64,000 nucleotides of DNA, taken from positions 300,443-364,442 of the forward strand of contig CADCEC010000004.1 in NCBI GenBank assembly GCA_902800395.1. The letters are read 5' to 3'. Every line of letters starts with the position of its first letter. Within the stretch, counting starts at the first letter, position 1. The notes beneath the pieces are model-generated. The model was given only the letters and a program-made list of their open reading frames with translations. It did not search any database and was not told where the DNA came from. A program made the translations under genes and the position numbers. Shown here in pieces: positions 3,451 through 63,968 of the stretch. The DNA is from an uncultured Bacteroidota bacterium. GTDB taxonomy: Bacteria > Bacteroidota > Bacteroidia > Bacteroidales > P3.

Positions 3451-3484
3451 AGGAGATAAGGAGCCTGGAGATAAGGAGATAAGA
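3451..3484. repeat. 8-nt phrase array (GGAGATAA) upstream of rsmD
   Basis: Three copies of GGAGATAA and one altered GGAGCCT copy fill the 3444-3487 spacer and end three bases before the rsmD ATG. It is one member of the window-wide class of short tandem arrays. Confidence 0.7.
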
Positions 3485-3487
3485 CAA

Positions 3488-4030
3488 ATGCGAATTATAG
3501 CAGGAACACTCAAGGGACGTCGTCTGAACCCGCCGGCAAATCTACCGGTGAGGCCGACGACCGATATGGCTCGCGAGGGACTCTTCAATATCCTCAACAA
3601 CTATGTCGACTTCGACGAGTGTACGGTGATGGACCTCTTCGCCGGTACCGGCGCTATGTCGGTGGAGTTTATCTCTCGTGGCGTGCGCGAGGTGACGGCG
3701 GTGGATATCAACAACGCCTGCACCGACTATATCAAGTCGGAAGCGCAGCGGTTGGAATTGAATAATCTCCGAGTGGTGCGGGCCGATGTGTTCGACCTGC
3801 TGAAGCGTGCCAACCGCAAGTTCGATATCGTCTTTGCCGACCCGCCCTACGCCATAGAAGGGTTGGAGACATTGCCCGGCCTGGTCTTCGATCGTCAGGT
3901 GCTTACCGATGACGGCATCTTCATCCTCGAGCATCCGCGCGAGTATAGTTTCGAGGAGCATCCCCACTTCTGGCAGCACCGCAACTACGGCAAAGTCAAC
4001 TTTACGTTTTTCGCAATGCAACTAGATTAA
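3488..4030 (+). CDS. rsmD: 16S rRNA (guanine966-N2)-methyltransferase RsmD
   Basis: A 180-residue class I SAM-dependent methyltransferase. The N-terminal MRIIAGTLKGRRL is the RsmD signature, DLFAGTGAMSVEFISRG is the SAM-binding loop (about residues 49-65), and FADPPYA (about 116-122) carries the N6/N2-methylase DPPY motif. It methylates G966 of 16S rRNA in the assembled 30S subunit. It follows DUF3822, the usual Bacteroidales order. Confidence 0.94.
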   Translation: MRIIAGTLKGRRLNPPANLPVRPTTDMAREGLFNILNNYVDFDECTVMDLFAGTGAMSVEFISRGVREVTAVDINNACTDYIKSEAQRLELNNLRVVRADVFDLLKRANRKFDIVFADPPYAIEGLETLPGLVFDRQVLTDDGIFILEHPREYSFEEHPHFWQHRNYGKVNFTFFAMQLD

Positions 4031-4043
4031 AGTTAAGAATATG

Positions 4044-4079
4044 GAAGTTAAAGAAGTTATAGAAGTTAAAGAAGTTAAA
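4044..4079. repeat. 9-nt phrase array (GAAGTTAAA x 4)
   Basis: Four units, GAAGTTAAA, GAAGTTATA, GAAGTTAAA, GAAGTTAAA, lie just after the rsmD stop. The last unit overlaps the left arm of the hairpin at 4073-4114, and an inverted version of the phrase (TTTAACT) recurs near 4110 and 4155. Confidence 0.85.
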
Positions 4080-4114
4080 GACAAATGTGCAAGACGATGC
4101 TATTGTCTTTAACT
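4073..4114 (+). terminator. 12-bp inverted repeat after rsmD
   Basis: AGTTAAAGACAA pairs perfectly with TTGTCTTTAACT across an 18-base loop. It lies between rsmD and purC and is built partly from the 9-nt array. There is no clean T-run, so terminator function is inferred from position. Just downstream, GCGAGCGAAGCGAGCG (4118-4133) is another self-repeating phrase. Confidence 0.45.
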
Positions 4115-4181
4115 CCTAGCGAGCGAAGCGAGCGATAACTTCTTTTATTCTTTAACTCCCTAACCTCCAAAAACAGTATAT

Positions 4182-5129
4182 ATGAACGCAATCGTAAAAA
4201 CCAACTTCAATTTCCCGAAGCAGAAAAGCCTCTATGTGGGCAAAGTGCGCGATGTCTACAACATCGACGACAAGTATATGGCGATGGTGGTGAGCGACCG
4301 CATCTCCGCCTTTGATGTCGTTCTCCCCAAGGGCATCCCCTACAAGGGTCAGGTGCTCAACCAGATTGCTGCCAAGTTCCTCGACGCCACCGCCGACATC
4401 CTGCCCAACTGGAAGCTCGCCACTCCCGATCCCATGGTCACCGTGGGACTCAAGTGCGAAGGGTTCCGCGTGGAGATGATTGTTCGCGGCTACCTCGCCG
4501 GCAGCGCCTGGCGCGAGTATAAGGCCGGTGCCCGCACCCTCTGCGGCGTGCCGCTGCCCGAAGGTATGGTCGAGAACCAGAAGTTCCCGACCCCCATCGT
4601 CACCCCCACCACCAAGGCCGACGAAGGTCACGACGAGAACATCAGCCGTGAGGAGATTATCCGCACGGGCCTCGTCAGCAAGGAAGACTACGACCAGCTG
4701 GAGTGTTACGCCCTGCAGCTCTTCCAGCGTGGTACCGAGATGGCCGCCCAGAAGGGCCTCATCCTGGTGGACACCAAGTACGAGTTCGGCAAACGCGACG
4801 GCAAGATCTACCTCATCGACGAGATTCACACTCCCGACAGCAGCCGTTATTTCTATGCCGAGGGCTATGAGGAGCGTCTGAAGAAAGGCGAGCACCAGCG
4901 TCAGCTCAGCAAGGAGTTCGTCCGCGAGTGGCTCATGGACAACGGCTTCCAGGGTAAGGAAGGCCAGCAGGTGCCCGAAATGACCGACGAGATCGTCAAC
5001 AGCATCTCCGACCGCTACATCGAGCTTTACGAGCACATCACGGGAGAAAAGTTCCAGAAAGCCGACGACTGCGCCGATGTCGCTGCCCGCATCGAGAAGA
5101 ACGTCTCCGACTACTTGAAGACGCTCTGA
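4182..5129 (+). CDS. purC: Phosphoribosylaminoimidazole-succinocarboxamide synthase
   Basis: A 315-residue SAICAR synthetase of the longer Bacteroidetes type. It joins CAIR and aspartate with ATP in purine synthesis. Diagnostic segments are [29 protein letters not shown] near the N-terminus, [19 protein letters not shown] (about residues 92-110) and [12 protein letters not shown] (about 212-223). The stop TGA shares one base with the ATG of the CYTH gene (ATGA-type coupling). Confidence 0.95.
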
Positions 5130-5614
5130 TGGAAATAGAGCGCAAATATCTTGTGCGGGAACTGCCATCGGACCTCGATGGTTATCCCCACGTCGAGATA
5201 GAGCAATGTTACCTATGCACATCGCCCACCGTGCGCATCCGCCGGATGGGCGATGTGTATATCTTGACTGTCAAAGAGAAAGTAATAAGTGGAAAGCGGA
5301 AAGTGGAAAGTGGAAAGCCTGAGGCAATTGTGAATCGCGAGGAGGAGTTCGCCCTCAGTGCCGAAGCTTATGAACGTCTGAAGGCAAAATGCGAAGGACG
5401 TCCGGTGCTGAAGACCCGCTACAAGATTCCGCTGGAGGGTGGCCTCACAGCCGAACTTGATATCTTCCACGACGCCCATGAAGGCCTGCGCCTTGTCGAG
5501 GTGGAATTCCCCGACACCGCCGTCTCCAACACCTTCACGCCCCCCGCCTGGTTCGGCGAGGATGTCTCCTCCGACCGCCGCTACCGTAACAGCTGGCTGG
5601 CATTCAACGAGTAA
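5129..5614 (+). CDS. CYTH domain protein (triphosphate tunnel family)
   Basis: A 161-residue CYTH protein. It opens with MEIERKYLV, which contains the ExExK metal/triphosphate-binding signature (E2, E4, K6). The family includes inorganic triphosphatases; the exact substrate here is unknown. A 28-base array of GTGGAAA units (5289-5316) encodes SGKRKVESGK in the loop after the second strand set, where relatives are shorter. Translation is coupled to purC by a one-base overlap. Confidence 0.85.
   Translation: MEIERKYLVRELPSDLDGYPHVEIEQCYLCTSPTVRIRRMGDVYILTVKEKVISGKRKVESGKPEAIVNREEEFALSAEAYERLKAKCEGRPVLKTRYKIPLEGGLTAELDIFHDAHEGLRLVEVEFPDTAVSNTFTPPAWFGEDVSSDRRYRNSWLAFNE
5289..5316. repeat. 7-nt phrase array (GTGGAAA x 4) inside the CYTH gene
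   Basis: Units GTGGAAA, GCGGAAA, GTGGAAA, GTGGAAA. They are read in frame as part of the cyclic heptapeptide V-E-S-G-K-W/R-K. The same phrase recurs at 13577, 14076 and 24078. Confidence 0.92.
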
Positions 5615-5621
5615 AATAAAA

Positions 5622-5645
5622 CGAGCGTCCCGATTGGGACGCTCG
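5622..5645. terminator. Terminator between convergent CYTH and acyl-CoA dehydrogenase genes
   Basis: CGAGCGTCCC pairs with GGGACGCTCG over a GATT loop: a 10-bp perfect stem, followed on the plus strand by CTCTTTCT and preceded by AAAATAAAA (T-rich on the minus strand). It serves both converging genes. Confidence 0.85.
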
Positions 5646-5667
5646 CTCTTTCTGGTAAAAGGTCGAC

Positions 5668-7380: not shown

Positions 7381-7441
7381 AATCTTAATGTTTTCTGTGT
7401 TTTATGTCGTTTTTCTCTCGGGGCTCGTTGGGGTGGCTCGA

Positions 7442-7630
7442 TTTCCCATTGGGATTTTGCAATTTCCCATTGGGATTTTGCAATTTCTCATTGAGATTTT
7501 TCATTTTCCCATTGGGATTTTTTCGTTTCTCATTGGGGCTTTAAAATTTCCCCACGGGATTTTTAATTTTCCCCACGGGATTTTGCAAAATCCCCACGGG
7601 ATTTCTCAATTTCCCCACGGGATTTTTTCG
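7442..7630. repeat. 21-bp x 9 tandem array in the etfA-acd spacer
   Basis: Nine units of exactly 21 bases, starting at 7442, 7463, 7484, 7505, 7526, 7547, 7568, 7589 and 7610. Units 1-5 carry a core of the type CCCATTGGG (units 3 and 5 vary it); units 6-9 carry CCCCACGGG. The core is followed by ATTTT and a variable 3-base end (CAA, CAT, TCG, AAA, AAT). Every unit has a CCC/GGG pairing core, so transcripts can form a chain of mini-hairpins. It fills most of the 279-base gap within the operon. Because 21 is a multiple of 3, a spurious plus-strand frame encoding FPIGILQ/FPHGIFN heptapeptides runs through it. Confidence 0.97.
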
Positions 7631-7659
7631 CCTCCCGTCCCGGCAGCCCTCCGGCGGCT

Positions 7660-9616: not shown

Positions 9617-9623
9617 CGAATAA

Positions 9624-9658
9624 ATTGAAAATTGAAAATTGAAAAATGAAAATTTAAC
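9624..9658. repeat. 7-nt phrase array (ATTGAAA x 5) upstream of etfB
   Basis: Units ATTGAAA, ATTGAAA, ATTGAAA, AATGAAA, ATTTAAC. The complementary phrase TTTTCAA forms the signal-peptide array at 44472. Confidence 0.92.
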
Positions 9659-9720
9659 AAAAAAATGACCCATTGAGTCTTTTCTTAACATATAGTAGCC
9701 TATATATACGATTGTTATAT

Positions 9721-9786
9721 GTTTGTTGTTCGTTTGTTAATCGAACAACAAACGAACAACAAACGAACAACAAACGAACAACAAAC
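9721..9786. repeat. 11-nt array (GAACAACAAAC x 4) with an 18-bp inverted repeat
   Basis: Four identical GAACAACAAAC units (9743-9786) follow an inverted copy (9721-9738). The arms 9721-9738 and 9747-9764 are perfectly complementary over 18 bp with an 8-base loop, so a strong AU-rich hairpin can form. It lies in the spacer upstream of etfB. Confidence 0.93.
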
Positions 9787-9835
9787 GAATAGATAACGTA
9801 CATCTATACTACTTGAATTTTTGAGCATAAAAAAA

Positions 9836-13364: not shown

Positions 13365-13372
13365 TATCTTTG
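13365..13372 (+). promoter_or_regulatory. -7 box for the glucan synthase gene
   Basis: TATCTTTG followed by C, 28 bases before the ATG at 13400. It shows that the earlier in-frame TTG (13370) cannot be the start, because it lies inside the promoter. Confidence 0.78.
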
Positions 13373-13399
13373 CACTTTGCTTTATTATATATTGCGTGT

Positions 13400-16300
13400 A
13401 TGAAGAATATTTATAAAGAGTTCAAAAACAGTGTAAAGGAGATTACACGGTATTATATGCTGCTGGTGGAGGAGACACGAAATCAGCGACTGGTGGGTAG
13501 CACCAACGAGTGGGTGCTCGATAATTACTACATGATTAGTGAGCAGGAGAAGGTGCTGAAGGAGGAGTTGAAGGGAGTGGAAAGTGGAAAGTGGAAAGTG
13601 GGAAGCAAGAGGGTGGATGTGTTGTGGAAGCTGCTGGAGGGCTACCTGCGGAAGTGCCACCACCAGGTGGACAAGACTTTATTCTTCCGCTACCTGAGCC
13701 AGGTGCAGGTGAAGGGCAAGGACTATCTGAGCTACCCCGAGGTGTGTGCGCTGCTGCCGCTGACGAAGGCCATCCTCATCAAAGAGTTGGCGGACCTGTG
13801 TCGTCAGCTGGAGGCTGAGAAGAGTTACCACTATGTGCCGACGGACCGCGGACAGGCGGACATGGAGCAGTTGGACAAGGCTGCGCAGGAGAACTTGCAG
13901 ATGATGAATATCTTCAACTCGCTGAAGAAAATGACACGTCTGCCGCTGTCGGAGCTTATCGATGCGGTGAGTTTCTCGGAGCGTATGCTGAAGGGCGAGA
14001 AGGCCGGTATGTACGACGAGATGCAGGACAAGACGAAGGAGGACTACAGGGCGAAGGTGGTGCAGCTGTTGCGAAGTGGAAAGTGGAAAACGGAAAGTGG
14101 AAAGCGTCTGTCGGAGTATGAGTTTGTGAAGGAATTGGTGGCGAAGGCTGACGAAAAGGGAGAACATGTGGGGTGGCAGCTGTTTCCGCCGAAACGCTGG
14201 AAGGCCCGCGCACATAGTTATATCTGGATCGTTACGCTGGGAAGTCTGTTGCTGGCGGCATTGATAGGTTATGGGTTATGGGTTATGGGTTATGGAGATG
14301 GGCTTAATTGGCTGTGGGTAGTGCTGACTGTGTTGCTGTGGCTGCCAATGAGCCAGGTGATGATAGACCTCTTCAACTGGCTGCTGGGCAAGTTGCACAG
14401 GCCCATGGGAACGTTCAAGATGAAATTCAAGGACGGCATGATTCCCGAGGAGTATACCACGATGGTCATCATGCCCACCATATTGAAGAACCGTGCGAAG
14501 GTGGAAGAGCTGCTGGGGGTGCTGGAGGTATACTATCTCTCCAACATCAATCGTGGTAATGGGCGCGATGGTTTTAGTGGAACGAATGGGCAGAATTTGT
14601 ACTATACTCTCGTGGGCGATGCGGCATCGTACAAGGAGGCCGATGCACCGTGGGACGACGAGGTGGTGCAGGCCGGTTTGGAGAAAGTGAAGGAGTTGAA
14701 TGAGAAATACGGTGCTCATATTTTCAACTTCGTCTATCGCAAGCGTGCCTGGAGCGAAGGCGAGCAGACTTGGCTGGGATACGAGCGCAAGCGTGGCGCG
14801 ATACTGCACTTTAACGACTTGGTGTTGGGAAACACCACCGAGGAGGAGAAACAGGTGCGTTTCCGCTGCGAGACCATCAGCGAGTGGCAGAACCGGCCGC
14901 CGCAGTTTATCATCACGCTGGACACCGATACCGAGTTGGTACTCTATTCAGCGCAGAAGTTGATTGGCGCAATGGCGCATCCGCTGAACCGTGCACAACT
15001 GAGCCCCGATGGACGCCGCGTGGACCGCGGTTACGGCATCATGCAGCCGAGGGTGAATGTCGACGTGGAGGTGACTAATAAGAGCCGCTTTGCGCAGTTG
15101 TTTGCCGGCCTGGGTGGTCTGGATGTGTATACCACGGCCAGTTTCGAGCTTTATCAGGATATCTTCAACGAGGGCTCCTTCTGTGGCAAGGGCATCTACG
15201 ACCTAAAGGTGTTCCAGCAGGTACTGAAGGGCACCTTCCCGGAGAATCTCATACTGAGTCACGATCTCATTGAGGGTTGTCATATCCGTTGCGGTCTCAT
15301 CAACGATGTGGAACTCTTCGACGACAACCCGAGCAACTGGATTGACGACGCCAAGCGTCACCATCGCTGGACGCGCGGTGACTGGCAGATTATCCCGTGG
15401 CTGAAAAACAGGGTGAAGAATGAGAAGGGTGAGAGGGTGAAAAACCAGGTGAACACCATCGGCAAGTGGAAGATATTCGACAACCTGCGCCGCTCGATGC
15501 TGAGCCTTAGTCTGGTGGTTTTGATTTTGGTTGGTTATGGAATCTCCGCGTGGCAGAATTACGCAGTTCAGCAAGGAATCAGTGGGTCGTGGTTTGTGCT
15601 GGTGGCACTTGTCGCTGTGGCGAGCCCGATAGTGTTCTTCATCGTGGGACAGGTGACGAAGGTGCCTCGTTTTGGCAAGCGCTACCGCTACTACATGACG
15701 CTGATGCGTGGATTCAAGGTGATTATCTACCGTTCTTTGGTGCAGTTCGCGCTGCTCCCCAAGGAGGCGTGGATGTATACCGACGCTGCTGTCCGGGCCT
15801 GCTACCGCATGTGGTTTTCGCATAGAAACCTGCTGGCATGGATTACCAGCGACGAAGCCTCCAAGAGTACCAAGGGTACCTTGGGCGACTATTTGGGGAA
15901 ATTCTGGATTAACTATGTGGTGTCTGCTGTGGTGTTCTGTATGGCACTGCTGGGCCATGTGGGCATCGGCGCCTGGGGAGCTGCAGGATTCTGCATGGCG
16001 ACCTGGTGCAGTGCGCCCTTCCTGATGTACTGGCTGGGTAAGAAATTCCCACAGGACAAGAAGAACCTTAATGCGAAGGAGACCGACGAGGTGCGCCGTC
16101 TGGCGCAAAAGACCTGGAGTTTCTTCGACAAGCTGATAACCGAAGAGAACAACTGGCTTATTCCCGACAATTATCAATTGAATCGTGACAAGAAGACCGA
16201 CTACAAGACCTCACCGACGAATATCGGCTATTCGCTCACTGCGGTGGTGAGTGCTGCAGAACTGCAATTCATCAGCGAGAAGGAGGCAGTGAGCCGCATC

Positions 16301-19300
16301 TCACAGATTATTCACACTGTCGGTCGACTTGAGAAATGGAACGGTCACCTCTACAACTGGTACGACATCAGCACGCTGAAGGCACTACCTAACTTCTTTA
16401 TTTCCACTTGCGACTCGGGCAACTTCGTGGCCTGTCTCTATGTGGTGAAAGGTTTCCTGTCCGACTTGTCCGACCCATCCGACTTGTCCGACGCGCTGTT
16501 GGCGAAGGTGCAGAGGTTGATTGACCAGACCGACTTCCGGAAGCTGTACAATCCCGAGTTGGATGTGTTCAGTATCGGCTACGACACGACGAACTACACG
16601 CTGCTGCCGTATCACTACAACAACTTCGCCAGTGAGGCGCGTCTGACGAGCTTCCTGACCATCGCCCAGGGTGACGCTCCCTACAAGCACTGGTTCTGTC
16701 TCGACAAGACGCTGGTGCAGTATGAGGGTTACAAAGGCGTGGCTTCATGGTATGGTACCCTGTTCGAGTATTTCATGCCGCTCATCTTCCTGCCGACCTA
16801 CAAGCATACGCTGATGGACGAGACCTACAGCTTTGCCATCCGTGCCCAGAAGTCATTTTTCCCGTCGCCGTGGGGCATCTCGGAGACGGCCTACAACGAA
16901 CTCGATGACGCCCAGAACTACAAATACCATGCTTTCGGTGTTCCCTATCTGAAGTTCCAAAACACTACGCCCGACCGCATCGTGGTGTCGCCCTACAGCT
17001 CGCTGATGACCATCGGTATCGACGACCGTGCGGTGTATGAGAACATGCAGAAGTTCAAAGCCCTCGAAATGTACGACGACTTCGGATTCTACGAGAGTTA
17101 TGACGAAGAGGATCATGTGCCCGTGAAGGCGCACTACGCCCACCATCAGGGTATGATTCTGGCCTCGCTGGCCAATTATCTCTGCGACCACTGCCTGCAG
17201 CGCTACTTTATGCAGGAGCCTGCTATGCGTTCCATGGAAACCTTGCTGAAGGAGAAGGCGCAAGTGAGGCCTTATATTGACCTCAAGGTAACGCAGTACA
17301 AGCGCTACCGCTATTCGAAGGTACAGACGGAGAGTGATGCTCGTGACTTCGATACCATTGCCAATGTGCCCGAGTTGGGCATCATCAGCAATGGCCAGTA
17401 CACAGTGCTGATGAACGACCGCGGCAGTGGCTTCTCGCGCTACCGTAACATCATGCTGGGCCGTTACCGTAAGATCTCCGCCGACCACTACGGCACATAC
17501 GTCTATATCCGTGATATTCGGAAGGACCACCTTTGGTGCAACACCTATGCGCCGCTGGATGTGATGCCGGAAGGCTATCATGTGAGCTTTGCGAGCGATA
17601 AGATGACCTTCCTGCGTATCGACGACGGCATCGAAACGAAGACCGAAGTGACTGTCCTCAAGGACCGCAGTGCTGAGATACGCCGCTTGACCTTCACCAA
17701 CAACAACAGCGAGGATGTCGACCTTGAGTTGACAACCTATGGCGAAGTGGTGCTTGCACCGATAGAGGAAGATGTGAACCATCGTGTCTTCAACGGCATG
17801 AAGATTACCTCCGAGTTCGACAAAGAACACGAAACCCTCGTCTTCAGCCGTCCGGGAAACTACGGCACACGCAACTATATGATTCATAAACTCTGGCTCT
17901 CCGACCCGTCCGACAAGTCCGATGTTGTGGAATATGAAACCTCCAGAGTGAAGTTTATCGGACGCGGCAATAGCCTCCGTCATGCCGACATCATCGACAA
18001 CCGCCGTACGCTGACGGCTACCGTGGGTACCACCCTCGATCCTGTTATGAGTATGCGCCGCCGTGTGCATGTGGCTGCTGGCAAGAGCGTGGAAGCCTAT
18101 GTCCTCACGGGCTTTGCAAAAGAGAAAGACCATTTGCTGCAACTCACAGAGCAGTATCAGAGCGGAGTGGATGTGGAGCATGCCTTCAAGACCGCTTCGG
18201 TGTTCAACAATATGCGCACCAGCATGTCGCTCCTCAAAGGCAGCCAGATGCGTCTCTACGGTAGCATCTCGAAGTATATGGCGCAGACTGCCACCCTCGG
18301 CAACGACCGTCAGGCCCTCTTGACGAGGAATACGTTGTCTCAGAGCGGCCTCTGGCGCTTTGGCATCAGTGGCGATTTGGCCATTCTCCTCATGGAGATA
18401 GACAGTATGGAGCGCAGCGGCTTCGCCAAAGAGATGCTGCGGGCTTTCGAGTACTACAAGGTTCACGGCATGCGTCTCGACCTCGTCTTCATCAACGATG
18501 CGCCACTTCATGAGCGCGAAGGCCTTTCTCACTTCATCCGCAATATGGCCAACACCGAGCACCTATGGGCAGAGCACAGCGATGCCGGCAAGGTGTATGT
18601 GCTCGACGGAAGCGATGTCACAGAAGCCGAGCGCATCTTGCTGCGCACCGTGGCGCGTCTCACCTTCAACACCGCCGACGGTATCACCGTTGAAGAGCAG
18701 CTCCGCCGGCTCGAAATCGCCAACCAGCACTATCAGGACAAGGTGGAATACCCAGTCCTCAAGCCCAATAGGGAATTCCGTGTCTGGAGCAACCTCGAGT
18801 TCTATAACCAGTATGGTGGCTTCGACCGCGAAGGGCGCGACTATGTGGTGACCAATACCAATACGCCGATGCCTTGGATCAACGTGCTGTCCAATGAACA
18901 GCATTTCGGATGTATCGTCAGCTCCACAATGGCAGGCTTTACCTTTGCCCACAATGCACAGCAGTTCAAGCTTACAGGCTGGAGCAACGACATAGTGCGC
19001 GACAATCCCGCCGAGATGCTCTTGATAAACAAGCAGCAGTTTGTCCCCGCTACCGCCCGTCACGGGCAAGGATGGTCGGCTTTCGATGCCGAATACGACG
19101 ACATGAAGGTCGCTGTCCGCGTCTTCGTGGCCTGCGACAAGCCTGAGAAATACTATCAAATCAGGGTGAACAACAAAAAGGATGTGCCGATGGAGGTGCA
19201 GCTCGACATGGTTTACAAACTCGTTCTCGGCATGAGCGAGGAGCAGACGGCACGCTACCTTTACTCCGAGTGGGACGAGGCCTCCAATACACTCTCTGTC

Positions 19301-34058: not shown

Positions 34059-34067
34059 CAATATAGT

Positions 34068-34123
34068 TTAACCATTGTTTAACCATCAAAAATGGTAGAA
34101 CAATGGTTAAACAATGGTTAAAC
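34068..34123. terminator. 20-bp perfect inverted repeat built from 11-nt units, between rsmG and folD
   Basis: The arm 34068-34087 (two TTTAACCAT units) is perfectly complementary to 34104-34123, with a 16-base loop that holds a further ATGGT. The repeating unit is CAATGGTTAAA. It lies between convergent genes, so a bidirectional transcription stop is likely, though there is no T-run beyond the stem. Confidence 0.8.
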
Positions 34124-34137
34124 AGAAGTCGAAGTAA

Positions 34138-44411: not shown

Positions 44412-44412
44412 C

Positions 44413-44440
44413 AATTAACAGTTAATAGTTAAGAGTTTTA
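44413..44440. repeat. 7-nt phrase array (AGTTAAn x 4) in the guaB-PPIase spacer
   Basis: AATTAAC, AGTTAAT, AGTTAAG, AGTTTTA, ending two bases before the next ATG. This phrase has stops in every frame and appears only outside genes. Confidence 0.85.
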
Positions 44441-44441
44441 G

Positions 44442-46493
44442 ATGAAGAAGATATTATTGGCTACTGCCATATTCTCAATTTTCAATTTTCAATTTACAAT
44501 CTCCCACGCCCAAACCCAGGACTTCAACCCCGTTGTCCTTGAGGTCGGTGGACAACAGATTACGCAGTCGGAATTTATGCACGACTTCCGACTTTCCTCT
44601 GGAGATAAAGCCTCTTCCACTCTCCCTCAGGCAGAGAAAAGCAAGGCTCTTGAGGAATATGCAGAGCTCTATGCCAATTTTCGCGCCAAACTTTGCGACG
44701 CCAAAGCAATGGGCCTCGATACCGCAAGAAACCTCACACGCGAACTCAACAAATACCGCGCAGACCTTGCCGCTCCCTATCTCATTGATTCCGCCATGCT
44801 ACAGCATATACTTCAAGAAGCGTATGAACGTAACCAGTATGCCCTCCATTGCTCCCATATCCTTGTCCCTTGTAGCCCTGATGCCTCTCCCGAGGACACG
44901 ATGGAAGCTTATAACCGGGCCTTGGAATATCGCAAGCGCATACTGAATGGCGAAGACTTTAGCGCTGTTGCTATCGAAGAAGCTTTGCGCGCTAGACCCC
45001 ACGACCCTGTTAAACCTAATGAAGGGGAACTCGCCTACTTCTCTTCTTTCCAGATGGTCTATCCTTTCGAGTCTGCCGCCTATGCCCTTCAGCCCGGCGA
45101 AATCAGCATGCCCGTGCGAACCCGTTTCGGTTATCACCTCATCAAACTTTTCGACCGCGTTAAGATGTACGGCAAGGTGACCCTCCAGCACATTTGGTTT
45201 CGTGGTAATGAGCGACAGAAAACCATCGGTCGGCTGTATGAGAATATCGTTTCCGGTCTCCCTTTCGAGAATGCAGCCTTGCAGAGCGACGATGCCTCCA
45301 CTGCCAATGACGGCGGATTCATCCGCGATGCCACCCTCGGACAGCTTCCTCAGGAGTATGTTAAAGTCTTAAGCCAGTTACAACCCGGCGAGGTGTCGCA
45401 TCCTTTTTATACCCGTTATGGCTGGCACATGGTCAAACTCGTAAAGAAAGATACTCTGCCCCCTTTCGAATCGATGGTGCCTTATTATAAACAGCGTATG
45501 GTTCGTGACCAGCGTGGCGATGCATCGCGCAAGTCGTTTGCCGCTTCAGCCCGTGTGAAATATGGCATTATTGACTATACCGTCACCAATCCTCCGAAGG
45601 CTTCGCTCGACGAGGTCATTTCCATTGTCAACGACTCTGTTTTTAAGGCCGAATGGCGATTCCGCGACACTACGGTTATCAAGGACCGTCGTCCTCTTGT
45701 CGAAGTCCCCGGCCGCCAGTATAACGCCGTCGATTTCGCTCGCTATATCCGCAAGAACCAGCAAAAGACTCGCCGTTGCGATTTGGCCTATCATGTCAGA
45801 AATCTTTATAATGACTTCCTAGACAGCGTCAGTGTAGCCTATGCTGACAGTCAGCTGGAAAAGGAGTATCCCGATTTTGCCGACCTCGTTGACGAATACC
45901 GTCGCGGTTTGATGATTTTCGACTATAACGAAAAGATGATATGGACCGCTGCCATCAACGATTCTATCGGTTTTGCCGACTTCTATGCCCGCGAGAGCGC
46001 CAAGAAGAGCATGAGTAATCCAGACGACTCTATTTATTTTTGGCGTACGCGCGCGCGAATAGTGGTTCTCACTGTTGCCGACAGCATGGCACTGGAACCC
46101 TCAAAAGCTGTCAAACTTATCCGTAAGGCCTCCGACAAGAATCTCACTTCTTCCGCTATGCAGGAGATGCTCCTCGACAAGATTGATCGCAAAAAGACCT
46201 CTTCTGTCGAGCCCGTCACCGTTTCTGTTGAGCAGGTGGAAAAGGGACGGCAATCGTATCTGGCTCCCGACCAGTGGCGGAAGGGAGTCTATACCACCTC
46301 TAATGGTGCTAAAGGGTATCGCGTCCTTGTGGTGCAGAATATCATTGAGCCGGGTTTGAAAGGACAACTTGAGGCCCGTGGTTACTACCTCAGCGGCTGG
46401 CAGAACGAATATGAACAGAATCTCTGCAAGAAACTCCGTGCGAAATACAATGTGAAAATCCACTACGATGCTCTGCGTCAGATTCGCTACTAA
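44442..46493 (+). CDS. Exported peptidyl-prolyl isomerase with two PpiC domains (PrsA/SurA/PpiD-like)
   Basis: 683 residues. The signal peptide core is encoded by a TTTTCAA array (44472-44499; SIFNFQFTI) and ends SHAQ. Two parvulin domains follow: about 130-235 (LHCSHILVPC, GELAYFSSFQMVYPFESAAY) and about 240-345 (VTLQHIWFRG, NDGGFIRDATLGQLPQEY). The C-terminal 330 residues are helical. It is expected to chaperone outer-membrane proteins in the periplasm. guaB followed by parvulin genes is a common Bacteroidales arrangement, to my recollection. Confidence 0.85.
   Translation: MKKILLATAIFSIFNFQFTISHAQTQDFNPVVLEVGGQQITQSEFMHDFRLSSGDKASSTLPQAEKSKALEEYAELYANFRAKLCDAKAMGLDTARNLTRELNKYRADLAAPYLIDSAMLQHILQEAYERNQYALHCSHILVPCSPDASPEDTMEAYNRALEYRKRILNGEDFSAVAIEEALRARPHDPVKPNEGELAYFSSFQMVYPFESAAYALQPGEISMPVRTRFGYHLIKLFDRVKMYGKVTLQHIWFRGNERQKTIGRLYENIVSGLPFENAALQSDDASTANDGGFIRDATLGQLPQEYVKVLSQLQPGEVSHPFYTRYGWHMVKLVKKDTLPPFESMVPYYKQRMVRDQRGDASRKSFAASARVKYGIIDYTVTNPPKASLDEVISIVNDSVFKAEWRFRDTTVIKDRRPLVEVPGRQYNAVDFARYIRKNQQKTRRCDLAYHVRNLYNDFLDSVSVAYADSQLEKEYPDFADLVDEYRRGLMIFDYNEKMIWTAAINDSIGFADFYARESAKKSMSNPDDSIYFWRTRARIVVLTVADSMALEPSKAVKLIRKASDKNLTSSAMQEMLLDKIDRKKTSSVEPVTVSVEQVEKGRQSYLAPDQWRKGVYTTSNGAKGYRVLVVQNIIEPGLKGQLEARGYYLSGWQNEYEQNLCKKLRAKYNVKIHYDALRQIRY
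44472..44499. repeat. 7-nt phrase array (TTTTCAA x 4) forming a signal-peptide core
   Basis: TTCTCAA, TTTTCAA, TTTTCAA, TTTACAA encode FSIFNFQFTI. It is the reverse complement of the ATTGAAA phrase at 9624. Confidence 0.92.
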
Positions 46494-47936: not shown

Positions 47937-48890
47937 ATGTCCGATAAAGAAAATCTCGATCTCTTTGAGCAGAAATACAATGCATTGCGCGCTGAAATGG
48001 CCAAGATTATCGTGGGCCAGCAGGAAGCCGTTGATAGTCTTCTCCTCTCGGTCTTTACGGGAGGACACTGTCTTCTTTTGGGTGTTCCGGGATTGGCAAA
48101 GACACTGATGGTTAACACTCTTGCTCAGACGTTGGGCCTCTCATTCTCGCGCATTCAGTTTACTCCCGACCTTATGCCTTCCGACATCACAGGCTCCGAG
48201 ATTCTCGATCGTGAGCGCAACTTCAAGTTTATACAAGGTCCTGTCTTCGCTAGCATCGTCCTTGCTGATGAAATCAACCGTACTCCTCCGAAGACCCAGG
48301 CCGCTCTTCTCGAGGCCATGCAGGAGCACCGCGTCACCGTCTCTGGTACTTCCTATCCGTTGCCCGACCCTTTCTTTGTTCTTGCCACACAAAACCCCAT
48401 TGAGCAGGAAGGAACCTATCCGCTTCCTGAGGCTCAGCTCGACCGTTTCATGTTCAATGTCCGACTCGACTACCCTTCGTTTGATGAAGAGGTGCAGATT
48501 GTTCGTCAGACTACTGTGGACCGTGATGCTCAAGTGCAGAAAATCCTTTCTGCCGACGAGATTCTTGCTTTCCAACAGCTCATCCGTCGTATGCCTGTGC
48601 CCGACAATGTGGTAGAATACGCTGTCAAGCTGGTCAGTCAGACCCGTCCGACAGGGCAGACAAGTCAGACCTCCCGTTACATCTCATGGGGCGCCGGTCC
48701 TCGCGCTTCCCAGTATCTCATCATGGGTGCTCGTACCTACGCCGCTATGCATGGCAAATATTCGCCTGATGCCGAAGATGTGCGTGCCGTAGCCTTCAAT
48801 GTGCTCCGCCACCGCATTGTCCGTAACTACTACGCTGAAGCTGAGAATATTTCTACCGACCAGATTATCACTGAATTGTTGAAATCATGA
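47937..48890 (+). CDS. MoxR-family AAA+ ATPase
   Basis: 317 residues. Walker A GVPGLAKTLM (about 49-58), Walker B LADEINRTPPKTQAALLEAMQE, the MoxR signature ATQNPIEQEGTYPLPEAQLDRF and the C-terminal lid. MoxR ATPases act as chaperones for metal-centre insertion or membrane complexes, usually with DUF58 and VWA proteins. Here no such partners follow; the next gene, overlapping by 4 bases, is a secreted unknown. A 9-nt array (48637-48672) fills a variable loop before RYISWGAGPRAS. Confidence 0.92.
   Translation: MSDKENLDLFEQKYNALRAEMAKIIVGQQEAVDSLLLSVFTGGHCLLLGVPGLAKTLMVNTLAQTLGLSFSRIQFTPDLMPSDITGSEILDRERNFKFIQGPVFASIVLADEINRTPPKTQAALLEAMQEHRVTVSGTSYPLPDPFFVLATQNPIEQEGTYPLPEAQLDRFMFNVRLDYPSFDEEVQIVRQTTVDRDAQVQKILSADEILAFQQLIRRMPVPDNVVEYAVKLVSQTRPTGQTSQTSRYISWGAGPRASQYLIMGARTYAAMHGKYSPDAEDVRAVAFNVLRHRIVRNYYAEAENISTDQIITELLKS
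48637..48672. repeat. 9-nt phrase array (GTCnGACnn x 4) in moxR
   Basis: GTCAGACCC, GTCCGACAG, GGCAGACAA, GTCAGACCT encode SQTRPTGQTSQTS in the lid-domain loop. Related to the TCCGAC phrase of 16457. Confidence 0.8.
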
Positions 48891-50152
48891 AACGGTTCCT
48901 GTTGGCATTAGTGCTGCTTTCACCTTTCACTTTTCACTTTTCACCCGCCCATGCGCAGTCGGGTCTATATGTTCCTTCTGCCAAACCTGTGAAGAACATT
49001 CATAAGGCTCTAATCAATCCTCCTACTTTCTGCCTGCTTCTTTCCTATCAGGGCAATGATTCCTCTTATTCTGTCAACAATCTCGATCTTCTCGACTCTG
49101 CCTATCGAATTGCTTTCGATGTCGAAAATCCAAACTATTACACGATGACTGTGGAGAGTTACGGCAATGCTGATGACTCATTGGGTCAACGTCGTGTGGA
49201 CGGGGTAGTGCGTTATTTTTCCATGCGCAGTTATGCGCCTTTTCCCATACGAATGGCAAACAACCCGATACGCTGTTCATGCCACGGTGATACAGTAGAG
49301 ACTCTGCGTTTCGAAGTGCCGGTCTCGACAGCCGTCTACGACTGTGCTGAATTGCCGGAGGCAAGACGTAAACTTAACAAGAGCGTGCCGTTGGAGAATA
49401 CTGTATTGGTGACCTTCACCAATAATCCAGATGAATGCGTGGGTACAGCACGGGGATGCTTCATGCCGTCGGTAGACAGTTTGGTGCGAGGTTACTATGC
49501 TACACTTTTTTTGGCCAAGGGGTCGGTCTATTCGGTAGCAGGCACTAAAGACACCTGCCCCGGTGGCCTCGAGGTCTCCATTGATGACCACCTTGATTAC
49601 CGTCAGATAGTGGAACGATACCAACTCATTCCACACCCCAAGCAGATTCTCGTACAGGCAGGTTTCATCGTGGTGAGTAGTAACTTTGGCCGTGAAATAG
49701 ACGAGTGCGAGTTGGAGCAGAAAGACTCCGTCTTCATCCGTATTCCCGCCACGCCTGAACAGTTGGCATCGAAACTGAAGTTCTTCGCTAAGGTGAAGAC
49801 TTCCCGTGGTCTTGAATACAAAGCACTGCCTACACGTAAACTGCCTGGTAAAGGCGATTTGGTATTGCAGGCACCCATTAGCGTCGACCAGTTCGACACC
49901 ATTTACTTGGGCAAGCGTATTCAGGAGAAAGAACTAAAAGACTATTTTTATGAGGTTGACTCTCCTACCGAAGCTGCTGCTTTCGCTGTTGGAAAGCGTT
50001 TTTTTGTAGCCTATCGCGTTGACAAACACGGTCAGTACGAACTCAAGAAAGCCCTCCAAAACCTTTTCCGCATCGTCCCCGAACAGGAGGAGGATATCGA
50101 GAAACCCACCGGAAAAGTAGAACTCAAAGGAGAAGAAATTATAGAAGATTAA
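48887..50152 (+). CDS. Uncharacterised secreted protein
   Basis: 421 residues. Signal peptide (about 1-24, ending AHAQ) with a core made by a TTTCACT array (SPFTFHFSP). The rest is beta-rich, with several Cys (NNPIRCSCHGDTVE) and an acidic C-terminal tail (EQEEDIEKPTGKVELKGEEI). I do not recognise the family; a resemblance to DUF4831 was considered and not upheld. Translation is coupled to moxR by a 4-base overlap, which suggests a functional link to that ATPase. Confidence 0.6.
   Translation: MKRFLLALVLLSPFTFHFSPAHAQSGLYVPSAKPVKNIHKALINPPTFCLLLSYQGNDSSYSVNNLDLLDSAYRIAFDVENPNYYTMTVESYGNADDSLGQRRVDGVVRYFSMRSYAPFPIRMANNPIRCSCHGDTVETLRFEVPVSTAVYDCAELPEARRKLNKSVPLENTVLVTFTNNPDECVGTARGCFMPSVDSLVRGYYATLFLAKGSVYSVAGTKDTCPGGLEVSIDDHLDYRQIVERYQLIPHPKQILVQAGFIVVSSNFGREIDECELEQKDSVFIRIPATPEQLASKLKFFAKVKTSRGLEYKALPTRKLPGKGDLVLQAPISVDQFDTIYLGKRIQEKELKDYFYEVDSPTEAAAFAVGKRFFVAYRVDKHGQYELKKALQNLFRIVPEQEEDIEKPTGKVELKGEEIIED
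48918..48945. repeat. 7-nt phrase array (TTTCACT x 4) forming a signal-peptide core
   Basis: TTTCACC, TTTCACT, TTTCACT, TTTCACC encode LSPFTFHFSP. The opposite orientation (AGTGAAA) contains a stop each cycle. Confidence 0.93.
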
Positions 50153-53454: not shown

Positions 53455-53470
53455 AAGGCTATATTTTTTT

Positions 53471-53505
53471 AGTTCTTAGTTCTTAGTTCTCAGTTCTTAC
53501 TTCTC
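53471..53505. repeat. 7-nt phrase array (AGTTCTT x 5) supplying the nfeD stop codon
   Basis: AGTTCTT, AGTTCTT, AGTTCTC, AGTTCTT, ACTTCTC. The nfeD stop (53497-53499) lies inside the array on the minus strand. Confidence 0.9.
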
Positions 53506-54288: not shown

Positions 54289-54328
54289 TTCCCTAGGATT
54301 TCTTAGGCGTTCCTAGGGCTTTCTAGGA
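54289..54328. repeat. 10-nt phrase array (nTTCCTAGGn x 4) at the ispF 3' end
   Basis: TTCCCTAGGA, TTTCTTAGGC, GTTCCTAGGG, CTTTCTAGGA. It encodes the last residues of IspF (ESPRNA) and its stop codon, then continues into the spacer toward clpS. Confidence 0.88.
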
Positions 54329-54788: not shown

Positions 54789-54791
54789 AGC

Positions 54792-54826
54792 ATTAACCAT
54801 TAACCCTTAACCGTTAACCTTTAACC
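54792..54826. repeat. 7-nt phrase array (nTTAACC x 5) between ispF and porV
   Basis: ATTAACC, ATTAACC, CTTAACC, GTTAACC, TTTAACC, then GTTA. It runs from the ispF start to the porV stop; the trailing TTA (54828-54830) is the porV stop codon on the minus strand. The same phrase recurs at 63934. Confidence 0.92.
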
Positions 54827-54827
54827 G

Positions 54828-56012
54828 TTATTTTGTCGGTTTCATATCCAATCCAATGGAGATGCGGATGGTATTGGCCAACGAATTGGTGGCAACTTTG
54901 GTGGTGGGAATGAGGTAGGAGAAATCGCCGGAAAAGTAGTTGTAGCGGATGCCAAAACCTACGGTGGCATACTGGCGGCCGCCTTTGGTCTCATGCTCAT
55001 AGAAGTAGCCTGCACGGAAGGCGAACGATTCTGCATACCAATATTCTGCACCTGCCGAAACCTGTACCTCATGAAGCTCCTCCGAGAAGCCGCCCGGAGC
55101 ATCGTAGAACGACTGTATGGCACCCTGTATGACACCGATGTTGTTATATTCGGTCCAGTTGTTGGCGTAACGCGAAGGATAGGTCACCCCGTCTTTGGTG
55201 TAAGGAGGAGTGGGAACGAGGAGCTTGTTGAAGTCAAGAAGTACCGAAATCTTGTTGTAGTCGTCAATACGGTTGGTGTAGCGTCCGCCGAAGCGAAGGT
55301 TGGCGGGAAGGAACTCCTTGTCGTTGTCGTCGTTCGAGTACGACAATTTGGCGCCGAGGTTGGAGATGAACAGACCGAGGGCGTATTCTTGGCTCTTGTC
55401 TATATCGTGCTGGAAATAAAGTCCGATGTCGGCGGCTAGCGAGTTGGCGGCCTGGGTGCTGGTCCATCCGCCTCCGTCTTCAATGCTTACACTATTGGTG
55501 AGGTCGGAACGCAAATAGCGGCCGGTGGCACCTAACGAGAGGTGGTCGGAAAGTTTCAGGGCATAGGTGGCGTCGATGGCAAATTCGTTAGGGTGAAGGG
55601 TGTTGATTTTCTGTCCATCGACATCCGTCATATCAATGTCACCGAGGGTGAAGTAGGTGAGGCTGGCGGCTGCGGTGCTACGGTCGTTGATGCGGTAGTA
55701 GCCTCCGAGATAGAAGAGGTTCATATCGCCTACTTTCAGTTTACGCAGCCAAGGGGTATAAGTGGTGTAGATGCCAGCTGAACCTTCGATAAAGGCAAAT
55801 TTGGCGTTGTTCCAGTGAGCCGAGTAAGCATCAGGAGTGGAGGCTACGCCGGCGTCGCCCATAGCCGACGATATGGCGTCGGGGGCAATGAGAATGATGG
55901 GCATACCGGTGGAGATGAAGTTTTTGTTTTGTCCTATCTCGGAATAAGCAGATTGGGCGCGGAGTGTGCCGCCCAGAACGACAAGCAATGTCAGAAAAAT
56001 CAGTTTTTTCAT
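54828..56012 (-). CDS. porV: Type IX secretion system outer-membrane protein PorV (LptO)
   Basis: 394 residues. Signal peptide (1-19, GTLRAQ), then PIILIAPDAISSAMGDAGVASTPDAYS (in parts), the hallmark N-terminal PorV/PorP-like barrel segment, and 14 or so amphipathic strands. PorV shuttles T9SS cargo and works with PorU to cleave and anchor it at the surface. porU lies immediately upstream on the same strand, as in Porphyromonas. Confidence 0.92.
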   Translation of the reverse strand: MKKLIFLTLLVVLGGTLRAQSAYSEIGQNKNFISTGMPIILIAPDAISSAMGDAGVASTPDAYSAHWNNAKFAFIEGSAGIYTTYTPWLRKLKVGDMNLFYLGGYYRINDRSTAAASLTYFTLGDIDMTDVDGQKINTLHPNEFAIDATYALKLSDHLSLGATGRYLRSDLTNSVSIEDGGGWTSTQAANSLAADIGLYFQHDIDKSQEYALGLFISNLGAKLSYSNDDNDKEFLPANLRFGGRYTNRIDDYNKISVLLDFNKLLVPTPPYTKDGVTYPSRYANNWTEYNNIGVIQGAIQSFYDAPGGFSEELHEVQVSAGAEYWYAESFAFRAGYFYEHETKGGRQYATVGFGIRYNYFSGDFSYLIPTTKVATNSLANTIRISIGLDMKPTK

Positions 56013-61004: not shown

Positions 61005-61021
61005 GTTAAAGTATTATTACA

Positions 61022-61111: not shown

Positions 61112-61119
61112 TGTCTGAC

Positions 61120-61224: not shown

Positions 61225-61232
61225 TATTGTTG

Positions 61233-61277
61233 CTTATTAGCCCTATAAGCCCAATAAGACTAATTAGACTAATAATA
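61233..61277. repeat. 9-nt phrase array (CTnATTAGn x 5) upstream of rng
   Basis: CTTATTAGC, CCTATAAGC, CCAATAAGA, CTAATTAGA, CTAATAATA, ending three bases before the rng ATG. It is the same phrase that encodes the signal-peptide core at 41670. Confidence 0.9.
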
Positions 61278-61280
61278 TCA

Positions 61281-62891: not shown

Positions 62892-63678
62892 ACTGTTGCT
62901 GGCTATGTTGTTGAGCCTGTGCGCCATGGGCGCACAGGCTCAACACACCCGCGGCCTCGACGTCTCCAAGTTCCAGGGTGATATCAACTGGACAAAGGTG
63001 GCCGCCGACAGCACCATCAAATTCGTCTACGTCAAGTCCACAGAAGGTGCTTCGCTGACGGACCCCTACTACAAGACCAATATCACCAAGGCCCGCAAAG
63101 CCGGACTCCTCGTCGGCTTCTATCATGTCTACAGCTCCAAGACCACGGCCTACAAGCAGATGGCCAACATCCGTCGCACCGTCAAAAAGAAAGACCTCGA
63201 CCTTATCCCCGTCCTCGACATCGAGGGCTACCACTCCGGCAAGCTCTTCATGGAACGCGTAGACAAGCTCCTCGAACTGCTGGAGAAAGAATATGGCGCC
63301 AAGCCGATGATATATACCAGCGAGCACTGCTACAAGACCCATTTCAGCGGAAAGAAATACAGCAAGTACCACGTCTTCATCGCCAAATACAAAGGCGGCA
63401 GCCCCACGGTGCGCCACACCCTCTGGCAGTTCACCGAGAGCGGCCATGTGAAAGGCGTCTCCGGCCCTGTTGACATCAGCAAGTTCAACCGCCGCCACGC
63501 CCTCAGCGACATCAAGCTCCCCAAGAAGAAAGCGAAGAAAGAAGAGGAGGCGAAAAAGGACAAGGGAAAAGAGAAGAAGGAGAAGAAGGATCAGAAGAGC
63601 GGCAAGGGCTCAGGAGGGGGTGAAAAAGCAAAGTCTCCTGACCTACCCGCGGCCGACACCCTCTCGAAAAAGCAATAA
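62875..63678 (+). CDS. Secreted GH25 lysozyme with charged C-terminal tail
   Basis: 267 residues from the ATG at 62875 (MRYRCKLLLAML; two earlier in-frame ATGs at 62863 and 62869 are possible). Signal peptide ends GAQAQ. GH25 muramidase fold: RGLDVSKFQGDINW (first catalytic Asp), GFYHVYSSKTT, VLDIEGY (the DxE motif) and LWQFTESG. The last 55 residues are almost all Lys, Glu, Asp, Gly and Ser, a low-complexity tail. It would cleave peptidoglycan in the periplasm or outside the cell. It overlaps rng by 17 bases. Confidence 0.9.
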   Translation: MRYRCKLLLAMLLSLCAMGAQAQHTRGLDVSKFQGDINWTKVAADSTIKFVYVKSTEGASLTDPYYKTNITKARKAGLLVGFYHVYSSKTTAYKQMANIRRTVKKKDLDLIPVLDIEGYHSGKLFMERVDKLLELLEKEYGAKPMIYTSEHCYKTHFSGKKYSKYHVFIAKYKGGSPTVRHTLWQFTESGHVKGVSGPVDISKFNRRHALSDIKLPKKKAKKEEEAKKDKGKEKKEKKDQKSGKGSGGGEKAKSPDLPAADTLSKKQ

Positions 63679-63720
63679 CACCTTTCTTCGCCCAATTCGC
63701 TCCATTTCCGTCTGCTAATA

Positions 63721-63750
63721 AGTGCCCCGAAAAATCACTTTCGGGGCACT
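63721..63750 (+). terminator. Rho-independent terminator after the lysozyme gene
   Basis: AGTGCCCCGAAA pairs with TTTCGGGGCACT over a 6-base loop, followed by TTCTTTCTG. Confidence 0.92.
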
Positions 63751-63879
63751 TTCTTTCTGTTTGTAACCTACTAATTCTTAGTATCCTCTTCTTATCTTCT
63801 TTTACTATCCTTTTTATTCTCTTTTTGTTAAATTTTACTTTGGTAAACAATAAATAGAAGTAGATAACGTTATCATAAG

Positions 63880-63907
63880 GGTTAAAGGTTAAAAATTAAA
63901 TGTTAAC
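63880..63907. repeat. 7-nt phrase array (GGTTAAA x 4)
   Basis: GGTTAAA, GGTTAAA, AATTAAA, TGTTAAC in the 63679-63971 spacer. Inverted relative of the GTTAACC phrase that follows at 63934. Between them lies GGGGCTGACGCAAGCC (63908-63923), a small GC-rich palindrome. Confidence 0.85.
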
Positions 63908-63933
63908 GGGGCTGACGCAAGCCATGTTAAATC

Positions 63934-63968
63934 GTTAACCATTAACCGTTAACCATTAAACATTAAAA
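63934..63968. repeat. 7-nt phrase array (nTTAACC x 5)
   Basis: GTTAACC, ATTAACC, GTTAACC, ATTAAAC, ATTAAAA, ending three bases before the last ATG of the window. Same phrase as 54792. Confidence 0.92.

Follow-up and report, generated by a model that had tools for sequence, protein, structure and literature searches.

Short tandem arrays, typically four copies of a seven-nucleotide phrase, are scattered over a 64,000-nucleotide (nt) stretch of DNA from an uncultured member of the Bacteroidales lineage P3 (hereafter the window; GenBank assembly GCA_902800395.1, contig CADCEC010000004.1, positions 300,443–364,442). Such arrays recur throughout the genome (G000, a draft of 2.41 Mb in 21 contigs) and in several relatives, where they peak at four units, differ in dialect and turn over from site to site. 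A shared generating process is well supported by the copy number of about four, the sharing of phrases within genomes, the dialects and the site turnover. As to the nature of this process, we give about an even chance to the reading that new sites receive their arrays by copying or templating and that selection then filters them. Heptamer arrays have so far been known, without explanation, as a peculiarity of a few bacterial lineages. Here, one genus includes species rich in arrays and others whose sampled stretches are nearly devoid of them, with words that differ between sisters and replace one another at the same sites, which makes the origin of arrays testable by comparison.

Arrays as repeats of the DNA

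Most of the array sites listed in a preliminary description of the window were recovered. Thus, Tandem Repeats Finder (TRF) gave a row at 26 of the 29 coordinates with a score of at least 30. The three sites that it missed (28882, 30442 and 36892) are degenerate by eye, and those at 28882 and 36892 hold clear arrays in the relatives G036 and G117. The site at 17897 falls short of the three or more units ascribed to it, with 2.6 copies by TRF. When loci with at least three copies and periods of 7–12 are counted, the window holds 27, against 0–1 in 20 dinucleotide shuffles and 0–2 in 20 synonymous-codon shuffles that kept all predicted proteins and codon usage. At a score of at least 40, 21 loci are left, with at most 1 and 2 in the two controls, respectively. 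A stricter finder of our own gave 17 arrays versus none in all 20 shuffles and, at a lower threshold, 21 versus 0–1 in 10 shuffles. Because the arrays are lost in codon shuffles that keep the proteins, they are repeats at the DNA level; protein repeats kept by selection are thereby ruled out.

The region is also present in two relatives, RUG153 and RUG12171 (uncultured Bacteroidales/Bacteroidetes), taken here as G036 and G117, whose FloA genes are 91% and 88% identical to that of the window. We take the RUG names to denote rumen genomes, and the organism of the window is presumably a rumen inhabitant as well. The orthologous regions, similar in GC content (0.53 in the window, 0.52 in G036, 0.55 in G117), hold 32 arrays in G036 (80 kb) and 29 in G117 (60 kb), against 0–1 per shuffle (10 each). 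A PorU-like C25 peptidase, PorV and FloA, found in the window by Pfam scan, are consistent with Bacteroidota.

The preliminary description had treated arrays of all periods as one population, which mixed three different classes: four-copy arrays with units of 7–10 nt, 11-nt arrays that are often the arms of hairpins, and one nine-copy array of a 21-nt unit. Over 947 kb sampled in all, the 358 arrays divide into 181 of period 7, 22 of period 8, 32 of period 9, 10 of period 10, 58 of period 11 and 55 of other periods.

The copy number, rounded down, is four in 121 of the 218 arrays of period 7 or 14 overall, including the G000 stretches; it is four in 43 of 66 period-7 arrays in 13 stretches of G000 and in 23 of 54 in G007. 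In the whole G000 genome, exact runs of at least three GTGGAAA units have three copies at 21 loci, four at 26 and five at 2, with none longer; exact doublets number 11 in 324 kb. The units are poor in G-tracts, 118 of the 218 being without GG or CC and only 7 having GGG or CCC. Four copies are found in 59 of 118 arrays without GG/CC, 56 of 93 with GG/CC and 6 of 7 with GGG/CCC. Since units without G-tracts also peak at four, G-quadruplexes are ruled out as the general cause of the four-unit preference.

Phrases, host sites and turnover

The recurrence of phrases at unlinked loci, noticed earlier within the window, extends to the whole genome for GTGGAAA. The word (GTGGAAA)x3 has 79 matches in the 2.41 Mb, at 49 loci tallied by hand from the match list, and its backward control has 1. 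Whole-genome counts were made for GTGGAAA and TTTCAAT, and other recurring phrases were counted in sampled stretches. The 181 period-7 arrays fall into 63 of 1172 possible unit classes. Within a genome, the arrays share phrases in 7 of 63 pairs in the window (0.47 expected from letter-shuffled units), 11 of 242 in G036 (0.72), 6 of 149 in G117 (0.83) and 80 of 1407 in G007 (4.86), that is, 7–16 times the null in the four stretch sets chosen independently of phrase. The 13 G000 stretches were picked after GTGGAAA matches had been seen, so that their GTGGAAA count (35) is inflated; without GTGGAAA, sharing in them is 23 of 813 pairs versus a null of 5.7. Because of the same choice we set aside the share of perfect arrays for GTGGAAA (19 of 29 versus 7 of 49); in the window none of the four is perfect.

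Matches of (GTGGAAA)x3 and of the backward word AAAGGTG stand at 79:1 in G000, 20:1 in G012, 14:0 in G025, 15:60 in G036 and 0:12 in G002. The former is present in 10 of 36 congeners and in none of 24 other genomes, and AAAATTG is common across the genus. A genus-wide vocabulary therefore coexists with species dialects, plain for this one word and its reverse. In addition, the first base of an exact GTGGAAA run is the unit's final A in 13 of 27 cases, and the run ends one or two bases into the unit in 17 of 27.

Period-7 arrays are patchy in the genus, being plentiful in G000, G036, G117, G002 and G007 and absent from many 20-kb samples. Labels of rich and poor are rough, as about 4–24 kb was sampled for most genomes (more for G000, G036, G117 and G007) and a poor genome is one with no period-7 array in its sample; poor G009 nevertheless has two (GTGGAAA)x3 matches. 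G007 has 127 arrays in 322 kb; in G067, which matches it at 93% identity across some 3 kb, 25 were found in 162 kb. These two genomes also share a block of 872 nt at 99.2% identity (L098 2920–3791 in G067, L061 6363–7234 in G007) amid about 91%, likely a recent exchange. Among 18 stretches (3.9–20 kb) that represent the order's other families, 13 have no array and 5 have one to four, G046 having 4 in 5.3 kb. Across the order, 7 of 148 genomes contain (TTTCAAT)x3, the present one included, and each belongs to a different family. A 14.8-kb contig of the IMG/VR viral collection (L162) carries ten arrays with GTGGAAA-type runs of 10 and 14 copies among them, so long arrays of this type exist elsewhere.

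With all periods counted together, arrays take up 9.5% of non-coding bases (2950/31054) versus 0.9% of coding bases (3832/432946), and 107 of 206 arrays lie inside predicted open reading frames (ORFs); the gene calls behind these figures are crude, and gene names are inferred from Pfam domains. In the window, the ORF hosts that have a Pfam family are of housekeeping types (RadA-, MutS2-, CinA- and GH94-like among others). The arrays are also a source of new peptide stretches in housekeeping proteins. Gaps between divergent genes are avoided, with 8 of 93 intergenic arrays of period 7 or 14 versus 139 of 551 background gaps. Within ORFs of more than 150 amino acids, 90 of 92 period-7 units are open on at least one strand (2 are closed), as they must be; outside long ORFs, 60 of 89 are closed on both strands, and the stop filter is partly definitional. 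Of 29 arrays of GTGGAAA, a unit open in both directions, 27 are located in ORFs, close to the coding share of the sequence, and 20 of those 27 are in the sense orientation.

Comparison of orthologous sites between sister genomes showed that arrays turn over, a site holding the same phrase, another phrase or nothing. Of 56 mappable sites in coding sequence, 24 have an array at the ortholog too, versus 1 of 252 random coding places; outside ORFs the figures are 16 of 25 versus 8 of 125 random places. These counts take both directions of each genome pair and follow the loss of 83 of 164 array rows with unmappable flanks. In the comparison of phrases, from which unmapped rows were likewise dropped, the phrase at the ortholog is either identical to or different from that of the sister. 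Eight sites were aligned three ways, one being skipped for length. Three of them are clean, derived in-frame insertions of 27 nt against both relatives (Table 1). Of the other four, one is 12 nt longer, two have different arrays in the relatives and one is a replacement of equal length. In G007, moreover, an inverted-array element of about 100 nt follows the stop codon of an ORF and precedes an ATG, a candidate gene start; in G067 this ATG lies 1 nt after that stop.

If arrays grew from resident sequence, their phrases might be sought in the orthologs that lack them. In 37 such empty-site rows, some of which are one site viewed from two relatives, the fit of the phrase does not exceed that of letter-shuffled units (mean percentile 0.49). 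Furthermore, 34 of 201 period-7 arrays have an inverted partner 9–119 nt away, with a null near 0 (arrays less than 160 nt from a stretch end were left out of this count).

How new arrays might arise

The reading we favour is that an array arrives at about its full length, with a phrase from the same genome, and that arrays which break genes are removed by selection. Copying in the 7-nt class is inferred from the lack of seeds above chance at empty sites together with the partly fixed start phase. In this genome and in some congeners, the process would keep placing arrays of about four copies of a 7-nt, or less often an 8–10-nt, unit (mostly about 28–36 nt in all) at new sites, and the unit would mostly be drawn from phrases already present in the genome, not from the landing site. 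Existing arrays might be copied by ectopic template switching or by short-patch repair synthesis, which may leave an inverted copy nearby; the nearby inverted partners suggest template switching in replication or repair. Selection would then retain, within ORFs, in-frame arrays that lack stop codons and lie in variable stretches and, between genes, any phrase, seldom between divergent ones. Old arrays would decay, to be replaced by arrays of other phrases.

Several observations weigh against this reading. First, phrases are also shared between genomes, in 1.6–8.3% of pairs among the window, G036, G117, G007 and G067 (raw shares, with no null) and in none with G072. The 4.0% within G117 is not clearly above its sharing with some other genomes, and part of the sharing may thus reflect favoured sequence rather than copying. 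Second, 6 of 54 period-7 arrays in G007 have nine or more copies, and the bias in start phase is partial. Third, the raw mean match at empty sites is 5.35, versus 4.42 for shuffled units. The surplus comes mainly from 5 of the 37 rows, which share 8–14 nt with the phrase and are probably degraded arrays. At one site (G036 38175), the empty G117 ortholog reads AAAGGTA, one base off the phrase, and is a near-seed; others could have eroded through the 10–20% divergence. Fourth, no common longer flank was found among 7-nt arrays, those of GTGGAAA included. Fifth, no tested gene cleanly separates array-rich from array-poor congeners.

The candidate genes fared as follows. A reverse transcriptase as writer was rejected: of the 12 rich genomes 5 have PF00078 (G002, G072 and G001 are among those without it), and of the 17 poor ones 6 do. 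So was loss of mismatch repair: MutS_I is in 27 of 29 genomes (missing in rich G072 and poor G123) and MutL_C, which poor G018 lacks, in 21 of 22. RAYT/Y1 transposases (Y1_Tnp) are in 21 of 29 genomes, with 10 of the 12 rich ones and 11 of the 17 poor ones among them, and show no clear association with 7-nt arrays. Two patterns may serve as leads only. The SbcD_C domain, which a Bacteroides control has, is absent from 20 of the 22 congeneric genomes tested, rich and poor alike, and its absence might help palindromes to survive. A second, high-scoring type of Y-family polymerase (at least 107 bits) was found in none of the 9 rich genomes tested and in 8 of 13 poor ones, uncorrected for kinship; the other five poor genomes are likewise without it, and for G007 (79% complete) there is no Y-family match of either type.

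The preliminary description held that local slippage would not suffice. This went too far, for slippage stays a serious rival, somewhat less probable than copying. It supposes a polymerase with a strong 7-nt step, by which a resident heptamer duplicates to about four copies, the same slip-prone heptamers recurring at many loci. The dominance of period 7 speaks for it, as do the near-seed described above and the wide currency of a phrase such as AAAATTG across the genus. In addition, seven nucleotides has been proposed before as the stretch held by DNA polymerase, as two papers report (PMC4679880, PMC4692102). However, slippage would leave to be explained why copy number peaks at four with no fall-off from three, why seeds at empty sites are not above chance and why dialects differ among congeners. 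Nor are inverted partners, or the two-armed insertion of about 100 nt, simple products of slippage, and MutS and MutL are in nearly all tested genomes, whether rich or poor.

Other heptamer systems help to place the remaining alternatives. The GGGAATC and GGGGA(C/T)T heptamers of Xanthomonas and Nostoc have a four-unit preference tied to G-quadruplexes (PMC4692102). The arrays here resemble them in genome-wide spread, four-unit preference, non-coding bias, scarcity between divergent genes and lack of a link to gene class. They differ in that one G-rich phrase type was followed in each of those lineages (PMC4692102), against 63 unit classes here that are mostly without G-tracts, and in that the present arrays often lie in ORFs and swap phrases between sister species. 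The GGGAATC, GGGGATT and GGGGACT classes account for none of the 181 period-7 arrays in the 947 kb. TAACTGA repeats, described for marine Beggiatoaceae, some cyanobacteria and five Bacteroidetes, lie mostly just upstream of start codons, and other heptamer repeats were noted in intergenic regions of some Bacteroidetes (PMC4679880). Like the present arrays, they are heptamers sporadic in the tree, with 2–6 copies in the main genome of that study; unlike them, they use one phrase, where many occur here (PMC4679880). TAACTGA has no match among the 181 arrays and no exact doublet in the 947 kb. Cyanobacteria carry short tandemly repeated repetitive heptanucleotides, which are mentioned for Calothrix among others; as here, one lineage can have more than one heptamer family. 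The tandem repeats of Borgs have virtually all-unique units and, within ORFs, unit lengths that are always a multiple of three (PMC9879509). They share with our arrays their large number, fast evolution, independent origins and a location of about half in ORFs; here, by contrast, phrases recur within genomes and 7-mers sit in ORFs (PMC9879509). With phase-variable contingency loci, whose repeat number changes among cells or strains and switches surface genes, the arrays can be compared through their hosts in the window, which include RadA-, MutS2- and CinA-like genes. Heptamer arrays as such are thus already known from Xanthomonas, cyanobacteria, Beggiatoaceae and a few sets in Bacteroidetes. 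New within the literature searched (open-licence papers, among which none on such arrays in this group was found) are the many phrases at once, the dialects of sister species, the phrase swaps at one site, the abundant entry into housekeeping ORFs and the four-unit preference without G-tracts.

A bolder possibility is a dedicated repeat writer, telomerase-like or template-switching, which would act genome-wide and write four-copy heptamer arrays from a few templates that change fast between species; the four-unit preference in Xanthomonas and Nostoc would then be the signature of the same writer and not of selection for G-quadruplexes. We consider this unlikely.

A somewhat lower probability goes to the arrays being selected elements, such as regulator sites, translational elements or G-quadruplexes, that need four copies and whose phrase is a species-specific site or fold. 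Agreeing with this, G4-forming GGGAATC repeats show the same four-unit preference (PMC4692102), the arrays are denser between genes than within them, and divergent gaps are avoided. Disagreeing with it, more than half of the units lack GG or CC altogether, no stable hairpin was found in three idealised arrays, the unit classes are many, about half of the arrays lie inside predicted ORFs, with housekeeping types among the Pfam-assigned hosts of the window, and phrases swap at one site between sisters.

Dispersed hairpin elements and the window catalogue

The 11-nt arrays behave differently. An inverted partner was found for 27 of 61, always 2–14 nt away, and those arrays are therefore hairpins. 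In G007, an identical block of 129 nt with palindromic arms of 11-nt units stands at three loci on three contigs, with three different left flanks (Table 1); it contains ATTCGGC...GCCGAAT, and one copy reaches the end of its contig. At least one 11-nt element is thus truly dispersed, and copying between loci, which the preliminary description had offered as an alternative to a shared generating process, is established for it. Miniature inverted-repeat transposable elements (MITEs) and repetitive extragenic palindromic (REP) sequences are defined by palindromes that are nearly identical from one locus to another while their flanks differ. The 11-nt class is likewise made of dispersed hairpins; unlike those elements, its arms are built of tandem 11-nt units. 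The window element at 9705–9789 folds with a z-score of −8.1 as single-stranded DNA. A role as terminators was rejected, 13 arrays lying between convergent, 21 between divergent and 28 between tandem genes versus a background of 98, 139 and 314. Four contigs of G067 begin or end at an element related to the 129-nt block.

The dispersal of such an element, and the GGCTGACGCA motif that adjoins some 7-nt arrays, could suggest that 7-nt arrays are by-products of palindromic or MITE-like elements with 11-nt arms, moved by an unseen transposase. This is very improbable, given that 11-nt arrays are also present in congeners for which a 20-kb sample contained no 7-nt array, that Y1 transposases are found in rich and poor genomes alike, that an inverted partner is lacking for 167 of 201 period-7 arrays, and that GTGGAAA arrays have no common flank. 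A conserved flanking motif for all arrays was rejected as well, CTGACGCA being near only 9 of 442 arrays. GCTGACGCA has a total count of 26 versus 15 in one shuffle. Within the genus, it directly adjoins 7-nt arrays in four species (window 63911; L068 18830 and 19869; L044 14510; L047 386) and sits between inverted arms in the window and L068. Finally, assembly or binning artefact can be practically dismissed: the genomes are multi-contig drafts and some G067 contigs start or end at an 11-nt element, but separate assemblies agree on the phrase of some arrays at orthologous places, most reading frames stay intact, and arrays of about 30 nt are shorter than the usual short read.

The third class, the 21-nt array, is nearly identical in G036 and is replaced by other sequence in G117. 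Around it, positions 7250–8000 are 98–100% identical to G036 in three 250-nt bins, with 78–98% in the surrounding bins, which reflects either strong conservation or recent exchange.

Table 1. Arrays and related elements in the window, with elements in relatives named by genome or contig. Site comparisons refer to the orthologous places in G036 and G117.
Feature	Position	Strand	Context and orthologs
AAGGAGAT short array	3450..3483		intergenic
GAAGTTAAA 9-nt array, 4.2 copies	4044..4081		intergenic; phrase at three other sampled loci of genome
GTGGAAA array, 4.4 copies	5287..5317	+	ORF 5129-5614, no Pfam family; site 18 nt longer than array-less G036 ortholog
21-nt array, 8.9 copies, palindromic CCCATTGGG/CCCCACGGG core	7441..7627		separate class
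ATTGAAA array	9622..9652		intergenic; related sequence in G036, G117
11-nt (CGAACAACAAA) hairpin element, long stem	9705..9789		two related copies in sampled part of genome
GTGGAAA array, 4.3 copies	13576..13605	+	GH94-type ORF 13370-21022; GGAATTC arrays of equal length and register in G036, G117
GTGGAAA array	14074..14104	+	GH94-type ORF; degraded form in G036, AAGGTGA array in G117
GGTTATG array, 4.1 perfect copies	14267..14295	+	GH94-type ORF; TTTCAAT array near same place in G036
9-nt TCCGAC array	16458..16492	+	GH94-type ORF; AATGAAG 7-mers in G036, GGAGTTCAA-like 9-mers in G117
9-nt TCCGAC repeat, short, 2.6 copies	17900..17922	+	
8-nt GTATCAAC array, 4.4 copies	19481..19515	+	GH94-type ORF; none in G036, CAAGGGAGTG 10-mers in G117
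GTGGAAA array, 5.7 copies	24074..24113	+	RadA-like ORF, directly 3' of zinc ribbon; absent in G036
Degenerate 9-nt CTAG-core repeat	28882..28925	+	CinA-like ORF; not in TRF; clear ACTAGTGGA array in G036, ACTTTCC array in G117
11-nt inverted-arm element	34066..34124		between convergent genes; other 11-mer arms in G117
Degenerate 9-nt TCCGAC-like repeat	36892..36935	-	MutS2-like ORF; not in TRF; 7-mer arrays in G036, G117
9-nt GGAGTTCAA array, 3.9 copies	37849..37883	-	MutS2-like ORF
9-nt TATTAGCCC array	41673..41702	-	5' end of ORF 40524-41717, no Pfam family
TAACAGT array	44409..44437		between IMPDH-like and PPIase-like genes; TAACGGT, TTAAACT in G036; GAATTAA, AGTGGTC in G117
TTTCAAT-type array	44471..44500	+	near 5' end of PPIase-like ORF; similar arrays in G036, G117
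9-nt degenerate TCCGAC-type array	48636..48670	+	MoxR-type AAA ORF
CTTTCAC array	48917..48944	+	near 5' end of ORF 48887-50152, no Pfam family
TTAGTTC array	53469..53504		between FloA and NfeD-like genes, overlapping end of NfeD-like gene
10-nt CCTAGG-core array	54292..54328		overlaps 3' end of YgbB-like ORF
nTTAACC array	54791..54830		fills YgbB-like/PorV-like gap; TTAAACT in G036; TTTCAAT and ACTAACC in G117
9-nt TATTAGCCC-type array	61235..61273		start of RNase E/G-like ORF
Inverted pair	63876..63967		TAAAGGT arm 63876-63906, spacer with GGGCTGACGCA, TTAACCA arm 63935-63967
Clean 27-nt in-frame insertion	G036 38175		
Clean 27-nt in-frame insertion	G036 40566		
Clean 27-nt in-frame insertion	G117 16295		
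129-nt block copy (G007)	L067 10078-10206		
129-nt block copy (G007)	L071 10420-10548		
129-nt block copy (G007)	L073 13-141		

The earlier remark that no mobile-element gene is nearby agrees with a Pfam scan of 52 window ORFs, a few predicted ORFs being left unscanned: 14 have no family, and none of the rest is a transposase or integrase. At 10974–11139, an OmpA-domain ORF contains a longer repeat of 87 nt in 1.9 copies, which by eye seems to encode cysteine-rich repeats.

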